From positions 1 through 28,490 of IMG/VR virus record IMGVR_UViG_3300008113_000282: a stretch of 28,490 bases of DNA; one strand, given 5' to 3'. The translations under genes and the position numbers were made by a program. Positions 14,396-22,549 of the stretch are shown here, one piece after another (position 1 is the stretch's first letter; every line of letters begins with the position of its first letter). The notes beneath the pieces were generated by a model. The model worked only from the letters and a program-made list of their open reading frames with translations, did no database searches and was not told the DNA's origin. This DNA is from a virus.

Positions 14396-15052
14396 TTATT
14401 TCACAGTTTCTTTAATCTTATAATGCCTTTCATATATATGCATATTGCAAACATAATGGTAGTATTTGCCAACTTTTCTTCCTAATTCTTTTGCTACGAT
14501 TATTTGAAGTTCACTAAAACAGTATTGATCATTGCAGAAACCATAAACAAGATCATTTGATCTCATCATTACTTGCATACTTAATTCGTCATTATTATCT
14601 ATATAGAAATTAATAGCATATGTGCAGATTGTGTCTTTAGCATATTTATCTATTTCTTTACCATCATACAGTGAAATACTCGCTCTACGTGTCAGAGGAT
14701 CATTTCTAAGCATGTCTATAACCTTATTAAGTTGGTTATTTCTTTTCCACTGATAGCCATAGTTAGAATTGACATTTCCATTCTTATCCATCATGGTTGC
14801 CCATATCTTAGCTTTCTTAGATATTTCTTCTGCATTAGGATTACCTGACAGGTACCATTGGAACTCATATTCAGCATAGTATGGATTCCATTTACGCCAT
14901 TCTGTTCTTATTAAGTTTTCTTTAGGTGTTCTTATTTCAACTAATACATTGTGGACTGTTTTAGTTCCATTTCTTTCTTCACCATTTTTCATTATAATGT
15001 CATACAAGTCTTCAAATGCATCTTGAGCATTATAATATGATTTGTTGTACAT
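14396..15052 (-). CDS. Thymidylate synthase family, probably dCMP hydroxymethylase
   Basis: A 218-residue protein with the family hallmarks: NSNYGYQW (95-102), TRRAS with the phosphate-binding arginines (121-125), catalytic Cys143 in DTICTY, MRSNDLVYGF (163-172) and MHIYERH (204-210). After RSND, the position occupied by Asn in true thymidylate synthases (Asn177 in E. coli) is Asp175 here (GFCNDQ). T4 gp42, the dCMP hydroxymethylase, has a very similar MRSND...RND stretch with Asp179, which selects cytosine. So dCMP hydroxymethylation is more likely than dTMP synthesis. It lacks the C-terminal tail of classic ThyA. Confidence 0.75.
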   Translation of the reverse strand: MYNKSYYNAQDAFEDLYDIIMKNGEERNGTKTVHNVLVEIRTPKENLIRTEWRKWNPYYAEYEFQWYLSGNPNAEEISKKAKIWATMMDKNGNVNSNYGYQWKRNNQLNKVIDMLRNDPLTRRASISLYDGKEIDKYAKDTICTYAINFYIDNNDELSMQVMMRSNDLVYGFCNDQYCFSELQIIVAKELGRKVGKYYHYVCNMHIYERHYKIKETVK

Positions 15053-15437
15053 AAATCTTTGATTTTCGTAATAGGTTTAATCCATCAAGGATTCTATATT
15101 CTTCTAAGTAATATACTTCTTTTATTCCAGACTGAATAATTATTTTGGCACATTCAAAACAAGGCGACAAAGTTACATACAATGCCGCCCCATCTGAATT
15201 GTTTGATGACTTAGCACATTTTGCTATTGCATTTGATTCCGCATGAAGTACATCTGGTCTTGTAGATCCATCTTCTAACTCACATACATTATGAAAACCA
15301 CTAATTGTCCCATTATAACCAATTGCTATAACATTATCTTGATTGACAATTAATGCTCCTACTTTTTTTCTTACACAGTAAGAAGCTTGTGCCACATTCA
15401 GAGCTAAATTCATGTAAAATGTATGCTTATTCTGCAT
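15030..15437 (-). CDS. dCMP deaminase
   Basis: The 135-residue enzyme has the cytidine-deaminase zinc site: HAESNAI (65-71, His65 ligand and catalytic Glu67) and PCFEC (92-96, ligands Cys93 and Cys96), with the N-terminal KVGALIV and GYNGT of dCMP deaminases. It converts dCMP to dUMP. Length is short compared with allosteric T4-type enzymes. It overlaps its neighbours (MazG-like upstream, thymidylate-synthase family downstream by 23 bases), so stoichiometry is coupled. Confidence 0.9.
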   Translation of the reverse strand: MQNKHTFYMNLALNVAQASYCVRKKVGALIVNQDNVIAIGYNGTISGFHNVCELEDGSTRPDVLHAESNAIAKCAKSSNNSDGAALYVTLSPCFECAKIIIQSGIKEVYYLEEYRILDGLNLLRKSKIYVQQIIL

Positions 15438-15732
15438 TTTTTACAAATGTTCCATTTTCCATTTTACCACTTCTCTTTGCAATAACTTCGTATGCGCCAT
15501 TAATACAATGTTCTATTTTAACTCCTCCAAGATGAGCAAGATTTGTTAGAACAACAACGCAATCTCCTATTGCATCATTAAATTCTAAATGATCATTTTT
15601 TAAAATAGCTTTTGCAAGTTCACCTGCTTCTTCTTGTAGTTTTACAAATTGAGTCTTTACATCACCTTTTTCATATAATCCTCTACTTCTTGCCCATTTT
15701 CTTATAGGTTCAAATTCATTAGTTAATTCCAT
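15427..15732 (-). CDS. MazG-like NTP pyrophosphohydrolase
   Basis: A 101-residue all-alpha protein with the MazG-type metal site KLQEEAGELA (31-40: Glu34, Glu35, Glu38) and EFNDAIGD (50-57: Glu50, Asp53, Asp57). Such enzymes hydrolyse (d)NTPs to monophosphates plus pyrophosphate. Next to dCMP deaminase and a dCMP/dUMP-modifying enzyme, the likely substrate is dCTP or dUTP, providing dCMP or dUMP. It overlaps the deaminase gene by 11 bases. Confidence 0.8.
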   Translation of the reverse strand: MELTNEFEPIRKWARSRGLYEKGDVKTQFVKLQEEAGELAKAILKNDHLEFNDAIGDCVVVLTNLAHLGGVKIEHCINGAYEVIAKRSGKMENGTFVKNAE

Positions 15733-15733
15733 A

Positions 15734-16039
15734 TTATTTACGTTTTAATACCCACAATGTATTGCGAGATTGTTCAGGAAAAAATGGTGCAATAATTACG
15801 CTAAGCAAGTTACTATCATAGTATGCTTTTAATTCTTCAAACATTTTAATAAATTTATTTCTATAAAATACTTCAAGCATATTTCCTTTGCCACATCCAA
15901 AGTCTACTACTGTTTCACCAATTTTGGCTTCTTTAACAATATGTGACCATCTTAAATAATGTGCAAATTGATCTCTGTGAAATACATGCCTTTCAAATGT
16001 TGAAACAGGATCTAAATCTGTTGTGTTATACCGCTTCAT
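15734..16039 (-). pseudogene. Methyltransferase with internal deletion, probable remnant
   Basis: The 101-residue product begins like a full-size phage methyltransferase (HVFHRDQFAHYLRW at 17-30, motif I VVDFGCGKGNMLEVFYRNKF at 43-62). It then passes at once into what I recognise as the C-terminal end of the same family (MFEELKAYYDSNLLS, FFPEQSRNTLW). The Rossmann core after motif I, including the acidic strand 2 end and motifs II-IV, is missing: about 150 residues by recollection of full-length relatives. The frame is intact, so an in-frame deletion is inferred. It cannot bind SAM normally; a surviving separate function is possible. Confidence 0.55.
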
Positions 16040-16232
16040 TAGGTGATGTGTATTTGGTTAAAGTTACTTTAGTTAATTGTTTAGAAAATAGTTTGCCATT
16101 AGATTTTACTTGACAATACTCTTTGTTGTCTTTTTTACTTGTGTAGATTTTTACAACTTCTCCTACAATTGTTGTTTTTGGTTTAGAAAATGATTCAAAC
16201 TGAACATTTGCACCGATTGTGATTGTTTCCAT
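16026..16232 (-). CDS. Hypothetical protein, probable small beta-barrel
   Basis: A 68-residue protein in which alternating short strands (TITIGANVQF, TTIVGEVVKIYTS, KEYCQVKSNGKLF, KQLTKVTL) suggest an SH3-like or KOW-like barrel. No catalytic motif. It overlaps the next gene by 14 bases. Function unknown. Confidence 0.6.
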   Translation of the reverse strand: METITIGANVQFESFSKPKTTIVGEVVKIYTSKKDNKEYCQVKSNGKLFSKQLTKVTLTKYTSPNEAV

Positions 16233-16234
16233 TT

Positions 16235-16504
16235 TTATTTAATTTTGTTTAAAAAATCGTTCATTGATGAAAGATATGCAACTGCATCAAGCAAATTGTC
16301 TTCTTTATGATTATAAGATTCTCTGGAAAGTTTTAATGCAATTAATGCCTTGTACATTATTTCGGCATCAACATTTAATCCTGTCATACCATTTAAAATC
16401 TGAGCAGCTCGTTGCATGCCTTCTTCAAATGGTCCATATTGTCTTTGTTTTTCTTCTGTACGCTCATATACTATCTCATGAGCCTTCTTTAGTATATTAT
16501 TCAT
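16235..16504 (-). CDS. DUF6378-like small phage protein
   Basis: An 89-residue helical protein with the pattern RTEEKQRQYGPFEEGMQRAA, a middle helix, and NHKEDNLLDAVAYLS near the end. This is the layout of the DUF6378 family found widely in phages; the helical arrangement with paired acidic residues (Glu, Asp) recalls MazG-type all-alpha NTP pyrophosphatases, though catalysis is unproven. First gene behind the 16522 promoter, followed by other nucleotide-pool genes. Confidence 0.7.
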   Translation of the reverse strand: MNNILKKAHEIVYERTEEKQRQYGPFEEGMQRAAQILNGMTGLNVDAEIMYKALIALKLSRESYNHKEDNLLDAVAYLSSMNDFLNKIK

Positions 16505-16602: not shown

Positions 16603-17766
16603 TTACATAAAGGAATATCTTCCTCTTGAAACATTATCTAATAGGTTCAAGCATATATAACGTGTAGCATCTATTGCGTGATTCATGAAATCAACAGGAA
16701 CATTTTCAAGTTTTCCATCTTTACTTTGTTTCCATTTATATGCATTTAACTCTTTTTTTAAATTATGACTACTTTGAGTCACATTTATTTTATATCTTTT
16801 TAGAATATTTATTGATTGCCTAATACTATCATTTCCTTTTTTTGCAGGTTCTACAAACCAACCATATGATTGTAATTCAGCAATTGACTTAGGTTCAGCA
16901 GAGTCAGCAACAATAGTTCCTGATATATTTAATTCTCGCATTCTGTTGCTTATATCCACATTTAATAATCTTTTCTCATAAATTAATTCATCTAAAACTA
17001 TTTCTCCATTTTGATTATACATTGCAATCAAAGAAGTAGGATCATTTGTAAATCCAAAGTCTAATCCATAACCTATAAGTTTTGCATCTAAACTAACATT
17101 TGGTATAATATTATAATCTCTAAAAATTACTCCTTCTAATTTACCAGTTAATCCTCTTGCATAAACTTTCCATAATTCTGGATCTTCAATTGATTCAATT
17201 TTGTTATGAATGTTCTGATCTAAAAACGTATTATGACGATGATCTGAAATTATTAATGTAACATTTTCTTTACCTATTAAATCACTATGCACCCAAAACT
17301 CTGTATTTGGGTTATAATCTAAATATGTTCTTCTTTTTGTTCTTAAATATAATTCATCAAATATTGGTTTAGGTATTCCATTAACCTCATTCATAAACAA
17401 ATAATCACGTTTTCCAGATTTAGCATCTTGCCAATCATCATAACTTTTAAACTCTATAATGGAACCATTAAAAAATGTAAATACCCTATCTGACTTATTA
17501 TAATTATTAATGTATGCTTGTAATATTTCACTTGATGAAACAATAGTTTCAGCATCTCTTAATGCACCAACTTTTAAATTTGGAATATCTTGACCAACAA
17601 CAGTAATAACTTGATTTGGTTCTTCAATAGCATGCAAAAATAAATTCTGCATTATTGCATAGGTTTTACCTGAAGAGGTTCCACCTTGATTAATTATTAT
17701 TTCTGTTTTAGCGTCTCTATTTGCCTTAAAAACATCTGTTGTTTGAAAAATATTATTTTGTAACAT
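16603..17766 (-). CDS. Terminase large subunit
   Basis: The 387-residue motor-nuclease of DNA packaging. ATPase: Walker A GGTSSGKT (28-35), Walker B YLFMNE (122-127, catalytic Glu127), and the YNPNTEFWVH coupling segment (151-160). Nuclease (RNase H-like): GLDFGFT (234-240, Asp236), IVADSAEPKS (285-294, Asp288) and NHAIDATRY (362-370, Asp366). Layout and length match the PBSX/SPP1-like Terminase_3 group. A 98-base gap with a promoter separates it from the nucleotide-metabolism genes. Confidence 0.95.
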   Translation of the reverse strand: MLQNNIFQTTDVFKANRDAKTEIIINQGGTSSGKTYAIMQNLFLHAIEEPNQVITVVGQDIPNLKVGALRDAETIVSSSEILQAYINNYNKSDRVFTFFNGSIIEFKSYDDWQDAKSGKRDYLFMNEVNGIPKPIFDELYLRTKRRTYLDYNPNTEFWVHSDLIGKENVTLIISDHRHNTFLDQNIHNKIESIEDPELWKVYARGLTGKLEGVIFRDYNIIPNVSLDAKLIGYGLDFGFTNDPTSLIAMYNQNGEIVLDELIYEKRLLNVDISNRMRELNISGTIVADSAEPKSIAELQSYGWFVEPAKKGNDSIRQSINILKRYKINVTQSSHNLKKELNAYKWKQSKDGKLENVPVDFMNHAIDATRYICLNLLDNVSRGRYSFM

Positions 17767-18397: not shown

Positions 18398-18928
18398 TTA
18401 CATTAATTGATAAATCTTTGACCATTCTGTGGGAAGTGTAACCTGTTTGTGTACTCTATACCCTAACTGCAAAAAGAACTCATCCCATTCTTTTTGTTCT
18501 TTTACGTTTATATGCCCCCACATTTCATCATTAGCAGTCTTTTGACTTGTACTGCTAAACAGAATCCATATTGGATTTATATGCTGAAAAATTCCTTTTA
18601 TTTCATCATCAGTCATATGTTCTGCTGTTTCAATAAACATCAGAATATCTGTTTTTGGCAGTTTGGTAACTAATTTTAATTCAGTTAAATTTTTCTTTAA
18701 ATAGTCTTTATGACTTTTAAACTTCTCAAATGCATATACTTTAAACCCATGATCAATTGCTGCTTTGCTATATGCTCCAACTCCGCAACCATAATCCAAA
18801 ATACTCGCACCATATCCATTAAGTTGACCAACTGTATTTCTTGCCAAGTCCATGAATTGCGGATTATCTAAACTGACACCCATTTTGAGTTCAATATCTA
18901 AAAATTCTTTATCAGTATATTTTGCCAT
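18398..18928 (-). CDS. Class I SAM-dependent methyltransferase
   Basis: The 176-residue protein has the Rossmann motif I SILDYGCGVGAYSKA (42-56), an acidic end of strand 2 (VYAFEKFKSH) and a motif IV region ILMFIETAEHM that resembles small-molecule or protein methyltransferases rather than DNA ones; no DPPY or NPPY motif is present. Substrate unknown. Such UbiE/UbiG-like enzymes are frequent in phages near glycosyl or sugar genes. It overlaps the HNH gene by 17 bases and ends three bases from a tiny ORF. Confidence 0.8.
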   Translation of the reverse strand: MAKYTDKEFLDIELKMGVSLDNPQFMDLARNTVGQLNGYGASILDYGCGVGAYSKAAIDHGFKVYAFEKFKSHKDYLKKNLTELKLVTKLPKTDILMFIETAEHMTDDEIKGIFQHINPIWILFSSTSQKTANDEMWGHINVKEQKEWDEFFLQLGYRVHKQVTLPTEWSKIYQLM

Positions 18929-21556: not shown

Positions 21557-22549
21557 TTAGATCAGTTTATTATAAATGCTGTTTCTTTTAATATTTATCT
21601 GTTTAAAATTAAAATTGCTTTGGCAATATTCAAAAAGCTGATGTCCTAACTCCACTCGCATCTGTGGATCGTTTAACAAATTCTTTATATGCTTATACCA
21701 ATCAGATTGTTTTTTAACGTACAAAACAGGAAGGTTTTTATATGGGTGGACATCGGAAACTATAGCAGGGTTTTTCTTTGCTGCAGTTTCTAAAACCTTT
21801 AGATTGCTTTTCATTCCGTTAAACTTTGACTCAACCAAAGGAATCAAACTAACATCAGAATCTGCATAAGCAGCCATATATCTCTCAATTGGTGCATATC
21901 TGTAAATGTGAGTGTCAAGTTTCCTACCTGCTGAGAAATAATAGCACATATTATTCCAGACTTCGCCTTCACTTTCATTATAACCTGCAATGACCATTTT
22001 TACATTATCAGCAATTAATCTCTTTACAGGTTCTTTAATAATCTTTAAATCCTTTTCATGTGTTCCTGATCCTGACCAGAATAACCTGAATTTGTCAGAT
22101 TCTATTTTATTGTCAAGAAACTGCTCCTCTCCATATGGTAAAGCATTAGGCAAAATCTCTACATTCTGATTGTATTGATAAATACCATCTGCAAGTCTTT
22201 CATGAGTGCAGGTACATAAATCTGCAATCTTTATATATTGAATTATTTTATCAGTTATATTATTTGCCTTGTATCTATTGTAAAGTATATGAGTTGGATC
22301 AAGTTGCCAATAATCATCATTGTCAACTACTAATTTAAATCCATATTTATTTCGCCAATCAATTATTTGCTCAATACTTATATCAGCCAAGAACCTGTTC
22401 ATAACAAATATATCAAATCCTTGACTAACTATTTCCTCACTTAGTGTATCAGTTACCAAACAATAATCTTTCTGCATATGCACTAAAGGCAGCATTATTC
22501 TATGATAGCCTACACCTGAAAACTTTGATGTTATTGCAAGTATTCTCAT
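21557..22549 (-). CDS. GT-B glycosyltransferase (family 4-like)
   Basis: The 330-residue protein has the two-lobed pattern of a GT-B enzyme. The N-terminal lobe begins MRILAITSKFSGVGYHRI with a short glycine loop and contains a nucleotide-fold pattern to about residue 120. The linker has NALPYG (135-140). The donor-binding C-terminal lobe has FWSGSGTHEKDL (157-168) and NGMKSNLKVLETAAKKNPAIVS (245-265), the acidic Glu254 corresponding to the EX7E-type donor site. It probably moves a sugar from a nucleotide-sugar. Acceptors could be virion protein, host surface polysaccharide or hydroxymethylated DNA. No signal peptide is present. It lies in the late operon, which favours virion or surface targets. 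Confidence 0.8.
   Translation of the reverse strand: MRILAITSKFSGVGYHRIMLPLVHMQKDYCLVTDTLSEEIVSQGFDIFVMNRFLADISIEQIIDWRNKYGFKLVVDNDDYWQLDPTHILYNRYKANNITDKIIQYIKIADLCTCTHERLADGIYQYNQNVEILPNALPYGEEQFLDNKIESDKFRLFWSGSGTHEKDLKIIKEPVKRLIADNVKMVIAGYNESEGEVWNNMCYYFSAGRKLDTHIYRYAPIERYMAAYADSDVSLIPLVESKFNGMKSNLKVLETAAKKNPAIVSDVHPYKNLPVLYVKKQSDWYKHIKNLLNDPQMRVELGHQLFEYCQSNFNFKQINIKRNSIYNKLI

Follow-up and report, generated by a model that had tools for sequence, protein, structure and literature searches.

For T4 dCMP hydroxymethylase (gp42), a structural study gives an Asp three residues before the catalytic Cys (C-3), together with a Ser/Tyr pair, as the hydroxymethylation signature, and it lists the absent C-terminal tail as a feature which sets this enzyme apart from thymidylate synthases (PMC6400193). 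According to the same source, methylation yields dihydrofolate (DHF) and calls for dihydrofolate reductase (DHFR), while hydroxymethylation yields tetrahydrofolate (THF) (PMC6400193). In the MetaGPA study of 2021, the thymidylate synthase domain PF00303 was reported to co-occur with PF01503, PF00383 and PF14437 in cytosine-modified contigs, and the top markers of such contigs included Asp at position 177 and a shift at position 147 (PMC8670742). The basic dCMP hydroxymethylase machinery is known, and the extra genes which travel with it in the relatives of the phage studied here appear undescribed in the literature we looked at.

The DNA analysed here (the window) is the 28,490-base virus record IMGVR_UViG_3300008113_000282, probably a fragment of a phage genome. 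Positions 14396-15732 carry three open reading frames on the minus strand, overlapping head to tail, which the earlier note had read as a cassette of a thymidylate-synthase-family enzyme, a dCMP deaminase and a MazG-like pyrophosphatase. Domain searches agreed with this, with matches over the cut-off for all three. The TS-fold enzyme, a predicted dCMP 5-hydroxymethylase of 218 aa (14396-15052), matched PF00303 with E=7.4e-33 and 114.3 bits (cut-off 24.3). The dCMP deaminase of 135 aa (15030-15437), the counterpart of T4 cd, matched PF00383 (E=5e-25), PF14437 (E=1.6e-18) and phrog_174 (E=1.5e-52). The MazG-like all-alpha NTP pyrophosphatase of 101 aa (15427-15732), a candidate dCTPase/dUTPase, matched PF03819 MazG with 28.0 bits (cut-off 22) and PF01503 with 24.3 bits (cut-off 21.3). 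All four domains of the MetaGPA cassette (PF00303, PF01503, PF00383 and PF14437) are thus present on the window contig.

These genes end a longer minus-strand run which sits downstream of the large terminase gene (16603-17766). It begins with a DUF6378 protein (16235-16504; PF19905, E=7.5e-11), a conserved upstream member of the cassette, followed by a small conserved protein (16026-16232) recognised from gene order and from its cluster of 10 loci (c25), and by a shortened class I methyltransferase named MT5 (15734-16039). The last four genes, from the methyltransferase remnant to the TS-fold enzyme, nearly touch or overlap. There is a second methyltransferase-domain protein (PF13489) at 18398-18928 on the minus strand, distinct from MT5, with matches in the related loci L003, L004 and L006. 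Relatives of the terminase were found in six Mucilaginibacter genome contigs with 57-61% identity, and the nearest named phages of the enzyme infect Bacteroides fragilis; both suggest that the host of the window phage is probably a member of Bacteroidota. The cassette proteins had no match in the six Mucilaginibacter stretches.

The key residues of the enzyme are the nucleophile Cys143, Asp140, Ser96, Tyr98 and Asp175, and the catalytic Cys and the conserved Glu, Tyr and His of the TS fold are present. Asp175, the pyrimidine-specificity residue (codon at 14528-14530, minus strand, counting from the start of the ORF at 15052), aligns with Asn177 of E. coli ThyA and Asp179 of T4 gp42, as had been claimed in the earlier note, and Asn174-Asp175 is invariant in an alignment of 30 sequences. 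The surrounding segment, also said there to be gp42-like, is identical at 9 of 12 positions between the window enzyme (RSNDLVYGFCND) and T4 gp42 (RSNDVVFGFRND). In E. coli numbering, which is used below, the two enzymes have in common Asp at C-3, Cys146, Thr147, Ser92, Tyr94 and Asp177, and also Trp80, Glu58, Asp169 and Tyr209. Both lack the synthase C-terminal tail: the window enzyme has 11 residues after HxY versus 55 in E. coli ThyA, which has Leu at C-3, His147, Pro92 and Asn177. In our reading of the alignment, Arg59 and Arg177 of the T4 folate site are replaced by Tyr62 and Cys173 in the window enzyme, a point against a gp42-like enzyme. The dN/dS of the enzyme was about 0.1 against L006 and L007, and it is therefore under purifying selection.

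Relatives were taken as the best 80 of 513 matching IMG/VR viral stretches, chosen in part with patterns placed on conserved segments; many of these loci are close kin, so the counts below are not independent. Asp177, Thr147, Ser92, Tyr94, Trp80 and Glu58 were each found in 81 of 81 sequences (the window plus the best 80 of 513, some of which were picked by a pattern spanning the Asp177 position). In the same 81 sequences, Asp was found at C-3 in 80, with Tyr in the remaining one, and the tail after HxY had 4-15 residues. Seven loci were tried for which the methyltransferase, and not the enzyme, had served as the search anchor, and six of them were readable (L125 was not); all six had the full residue set. 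It is likely, from this active-site pattern and the missing tail, that the protein of 14396-15052 is a dCMP 5-hydroxymethylase working like T4 gp42. We consider it fairly probable that the virion DNA of the window phage carries modified cytosine, and the base is probably 5-hydroxymethylcytosine (5hmC).

The homology to PF00303 and the adjoining deaminase would also be expected of a plain thymidylate-supply cassette, in which the deaminase makes dUMP and an ordinary thymidylate synthase makes dTMP. Further, td of Shigella phage SP18 (L095:995-1855), a member of the T-even td family, is an otherwise canonical thymidylate synthase with Asp at the Asn177 equivalent, where T4 td (PDB 1tis) has Asn, and it shows that Asp177 is compatible with such an enzyme. 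Asp177 alone therefore does not decide the product, and taken by itself Asp175 is weaker evidence than the earlier note suggested. An ordinary synthase is nevertheless very improbable, because the window enzyme has Asp instead of Leu at C-3, Thr instead of His at 147, Ser instead of Pro at 92 and no tail, and all NCBIfam thymidylate synthase models stayed under their curated cut-offs. In addition, no deaminase lay within 3 kb at 48 of 81 loci (best 80 of 513 plus the window), some of which are truncated by contig ends, and no DHFR was found in the 21 relatives' contigs searched (21 of the 80 loci), each of which had exactly one PF00303 gene. The proposal that the product is 5-hydroxymethyl-dCMP and not dTMP is thus supported by the C-3 Asp/Ser/Tyr signature, the Thr after Cys and the loss of the tail, and further by the NCBIfam scores, the missing DHFR and a near-constant MazG-like neighbour.

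Asp177 is reported to be enough by itself to make a synthase a dCMP methylase (PMC8670742), which would favour an enzyme making 5-methyl-dCMP by reductive methylation, as in Xp12-type phages. The phage AXL1 is related to the 5-methylcytosine phage Xp12, its own 5-methylcytosine being itself a suspicion (PMC9206674), and was our single stand-in for enzymes of this type. It has the same neighbours as the window, namely pyrophosphohydrolase, enzyme and deaminase. In the AXL1 enzyme, C-3 is Asn and the other positions are Pro147, Ser92 and Asp177; 61 residues follow HxY, and this enzyme groups with synthases, whereas the window enzyme has Asp at C-3 and Thr147 and is tailless. Among six complete named phages, DHFR was found in AXL1 alone, which is of the methylating type; the protein scored under the curated cut-off but is annotated as DHFR, in contrast to 0 of 21 for the relatives of the window. 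There is accordingly only a slight chance that the window enzyme is a dCMP methylase.

The structure model of the enzyme had a pLDDT of 95.8, and its best PDB match was the CMP hydroxymethylase MilA. T4 dCMP hydroxymethylase, synthases and AfhB also scored high against the model. Because synthases and the dCMP hydroxylase AfhB match so well (TMq 0.87 and 0.83 for PDB 9iqc/9iqu, over nearly the whole length), the fold match cannot separate the chemistries. A CMP hydroxymethylase of the MilA type was considered and judged improbable. In MilA, Lys and Ala at two positions are described as giving the ribose preference (PMC5175136); all 81 sequences (best 80 of 513 plus the window) have Arg126 and Ser167 there, and the enzyme family therefore fits a deoxynucleotide.

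The match with AfhB also raises a 5-hydroxy-dCMP synthase, the flavin-dependent dCMP hydroxylase of RB69, which makes a product to which a sugar could be joined directly at C5. The Durham phage paper reports such a synthase in the phage genus of RB69 (PMC13390438). The AfhB structures also end soon after HxY, and RB69ORF048c is nearly identical to them. RB69ORF048c shares Thr147 and Asp177 with the window enzyme, but it has Glu at C-3, Thr92, Val80, Asn169 and Phe209, where the window enzyme has the gp42-like Asp, Ser, Trp, Asp and Tyr. Genes of the arabinose pathway were not recognised in the scans of the window, and we regard this chemistry as very unlikely here.

Asp at C-3 is also common to SPO1 gp29 and its relatives, and one Agathobaculum phage relative is annotated as dUMP hydroxymethylase, an activity which would feed hypermodified thymine. 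We give this reading hardly any credence. The enzymes of SPO1 (gp29), Lucjan, a ViI-like phage and TM26 have Asn177, Asn147 and Gly or Ala at 92 against Asp, Thr and Ser in the window enzyme, and the window enzyme falls in another clade. In the tree, which took in 13 of the 80 loci, the window clade was split from synthases and dUMP hydroxymethylases with support of 95/93 and adjoined gp42 with 84/80. The grouping with gp42 is not firm, because identity to gp42 is low and the gp42 branch is long (3.73).

The neighbourhood of the enzyme was conserved to different degrees. Of the 81 loci (best 80 of 513 plus the window), 75 had a MazG-like gene no more than 3 kb from the enzyme, 66 had DUF6378 no more than 4.5 kb away, and 33 had the deaminase within 3 kb. 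The last count agrees with the doubt already expressed in the earlier note about the deaminase as evidence. Six loci had no MazG-like gene: L005, L031, L045 and L063 end at a nearby contig edge, and a dUTPase-family gene takes its place in L047 and L082. Gene order among relatives was MazG-deaminase-enzyme, enzyme-MazG or enzyme-MazG-deaminase, and the terminase diverged down to 26% identity; the link therefore survives rearrangement. It counts against the reading that MazG relatives of this type are common, with matches in 1,107 phage records. A PDB search with the MazG-like protein gave weak matches alone and indicated no substrate. Profiles of the cassette families were uninformative against single reference proteins, and the MazG profile missed even an annotated pyrophosphohydrolase.

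We propose the following pathway. Cys143 would attack C6 of dCMP, with Asp175 orienting and protonating the cytosine, and methylene-tetrahydrofolate would supply the one-carbon unit. A water molecule activated by Asp140 and held together with Ser96 would then attack the exocyclic methylene to give 5-hydroxymethyl-dCMP, and the folate by-product would be THF and not DHF. The MazG-like protein probably cleaves dCTP (perhaps dUTP) to the monophosphate, which would feed the enzyme and exclude plain C from the DNA, and the deaminase may turn surplus dCMP into dUMP for dTMP. Hydroxymethyl-dCMP would probably be phosphorylated by host kinases, and hydroxymethyl-dCTP built into phage DNA would give protection from restriction.

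The kinase for hydroxymethyl-dCMP is the main gap in this pathway. None of 22 records gave a match to the DNMK family PF21448, to which T4 gp1 belongs, and none of 21 to thymidylate kinase PF02223; the records may be fragments, and a phage kinase may lie elsewhere. The doubt of the earlier note on this point therefore stands, and host kinases are the likely answer. No hydroxymethylcytosine glucosyltransferase, including the T4-type beta-glucosyltransferase PF09198, was recognised among the window proteins scanned. The glycosyltransferase at 21557-22549 (minus strand) was considered as a DNA glucosyltransferase and set aside; its best family is the general phage glycosyltransferase phrog_7162, and a part in making surface sugars is more likely for it than one in DNA modification. 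Some sister phages have a second, GT2-type glycosyltransferase near the counterpart of this gene.

Apart from the window, PF09198 proteins adjoin homologous enzymes in Enterococcus phage vipetofem (L088:2992-5350) and Lactobacillus phage ATCCB (L092:2986-4890). The TS-fold enzymes of these two phages have the same Asp/Thr/Ser/Asp pattern, which suggests glucosylated hydroxymethylcytosine in these Gram-positive phages.

Between DUF6378 and the enzyme there is a slot occupied either by MT5 or by a module of three genes, c7-c9-PLP6, and in some loci by neither. Among the 81 loci (best 80 of 513 plus the window), MT5 was present in 28 and c9 in 23, and the two were together in none. In an MT5-anchored set of 30 loci, which overlaps the enzyme-anchored set, a TS-fold gene lay no more than 1.8 kb away in 28; the other two end 258 and 6 bases downstream. 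The c9 protein (for example L050:5976-6884 and L051:8202-9107, and 21 other loci) has about 300 aa and an all-helical model with a pLDDT of 82.1. It is always accompanied by c7 and the PLP-enzyme-like gene beside the hydroxymethylase. No significant match to c9 was found in Pfam, PHROGs, NCBIfam or 50,697 phage records, and a PDB search with its model gave nothing at E<=0.001, the weak matches including a few DNA-glycosylase-like structures. PLP6 matched PF00291 PLP-dependent enzymes weakly (28.0 bits, cut-off 35) and phrog_7093 with E=7e-28, and c7 matched PHROGs of unknown function and nothing else.

In the window, MT5 has lost 447 bp (149 residues) in frame by an internal deletion, and the identical deletion is present in L003. 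MT5 is intact in L004 (2791-3540) and L006 (8567-9316), where it has 250 aa, and it is strongly conserved in close relatives. PF13489 matched the window remnant with E=0.00077 and an intact relative with E=1.5e-9. Judged from its sequence, the window MT5 is probably inactive, which makes plain 5hmC more likely, unless another gene tailors the base. In a tentative and rather unlikely reading, hydroxymethylcytosine would be the base layer, the slot would hold swappable tailoring genes, and the window phage would have returned to plain 5hmC as a naturally occurring knockout, through the loss in MT5. The best curated (NCBIfam) matches of MT5 include the O-methyltransferases UbiG and Hen1, all below cut-off, and for this reason we speculate that MT5 perhaps O-methylates the hydroxymethyl group to give 5-methoxymethyl-cytosine. 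If the tailoring reading holds, c7-c9-PLP6 would attach an amino-acid-derived group to cytosine, and c9 is a candidate for a new base-modifying enzyme. Neither 5-methoxymethyl-cytosine nor an amino-acid-derived cytosine was found in the literature searched.

Homologues of MT5 in the phage collection (E<=1e-8) were in five records from four phages, since Stenotrophomonas phage AXL3 occurs twice. With one record taken for each, all four phages had methyltransferase, pyrophosphohydrolase, TS-fold enzyme and dCMP deaminase in constant order, and two of the four had an annotated kinase; the MT5 homologue thus always lies in a cassette of the pyrimidine-hydroxymethylase type. Their TS-fold enzymes share Asp177, Thr147 and the C-3 Asp with the window enzyme but differ from it in having Gly92. 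The AXL3 pyrophosphohydrolase is named hydrolase in the record and pyrophosphohydrolase in the paper (PMC7504290). AXL3 DNA resisted 35 of 37 restriction enzymes, and TasI and Tru1I alone cut it, both of which have A/T-only sites (PMC7504290). The AXL3 authors named the enzyme thymidylate synthase, though a thymidylate-synthase-complementing protein is encoded by AXL3 as well (PMC7504290). This resistance is the nearest wet evidence for such a cassette modifying C or G.

These results extend T4-type cytosine hydroxymethylation, at the level of residues, to small environmental phages probably infecting Bacteroidota. Asp at C-3, Ser92, Thr147, Asp177 and the tail jointly separate the pyrimidine chemistries compared here, which Asp177 alone does not. 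The lack of a recognised hydroxymethyl-dCMP kinase in these phages raises the question whether host kinases accept hydroxymethyl-dCMP, and the swapped tailoring slot makes a targeted search for new cytosine modifications possible.

Compared with known systems, Bacteroides phage BF503P4 and five relatives have an enzyme 49.5-50.5% identical to the window enzyme and annotated as deoxycytidylate 5-hydroxymethyltransferase. The BF503P4 enzyme has the same residues as the window enzyme and a short tail; unlike the window, its 14.5-kb stretch had no MazG match, and its run also contains dut and another, divergent gene of the TS fold. This second gene (L001:4139-4900) has Leu at the Glu58 position and lies a few genes before the hydroxymethylase. 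The window is like the cytosine-modified MetaGPA contigs in having PF00303 with Asp177, PF01503, PF00383 and PF14437 together, and unlike some of those reported in that no carbamoyltransferase was seen in it (PMC8670742). The AXL3 cassette (methyltransferase, pyrophosphohydrolase, kinase, TS-fold enzyme and deaminase) is similar in its MT5 homologue, Asp177, Thr147 and Asp at C-3, and different in Gly92, Ile80, a 53-residue tail, an intact methyltransferase and its own kinase. The RB69 5-hydroxy-dCMP synthase shares the TS fold, Asp177, Thr147 and a short tail, but it has Glu and Thr for Asp and Ser and has lost Trp80, Asp169 and Tyr209. T4 gp42 is longer than the window enzyme (246 versus 218 aa), with low identity and with Arg59 and Arg177, which the window enzyme has not kept; unlike T4, the window has a pyrophosphatase of MazG/PRA-PH-like type and contiguous genes, with kinase and glucosyltransferase not seen. 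The window enzyme is nevertheless like T4 gp42 (PDB 1b5d, 6l18) in fold, in all catalytic and specificity residues examined and in the absent synthase tail, and it is likewise accompanied by a deaminase and by a dNTP pyrophosphatase, which are cd and gp56 in T4.
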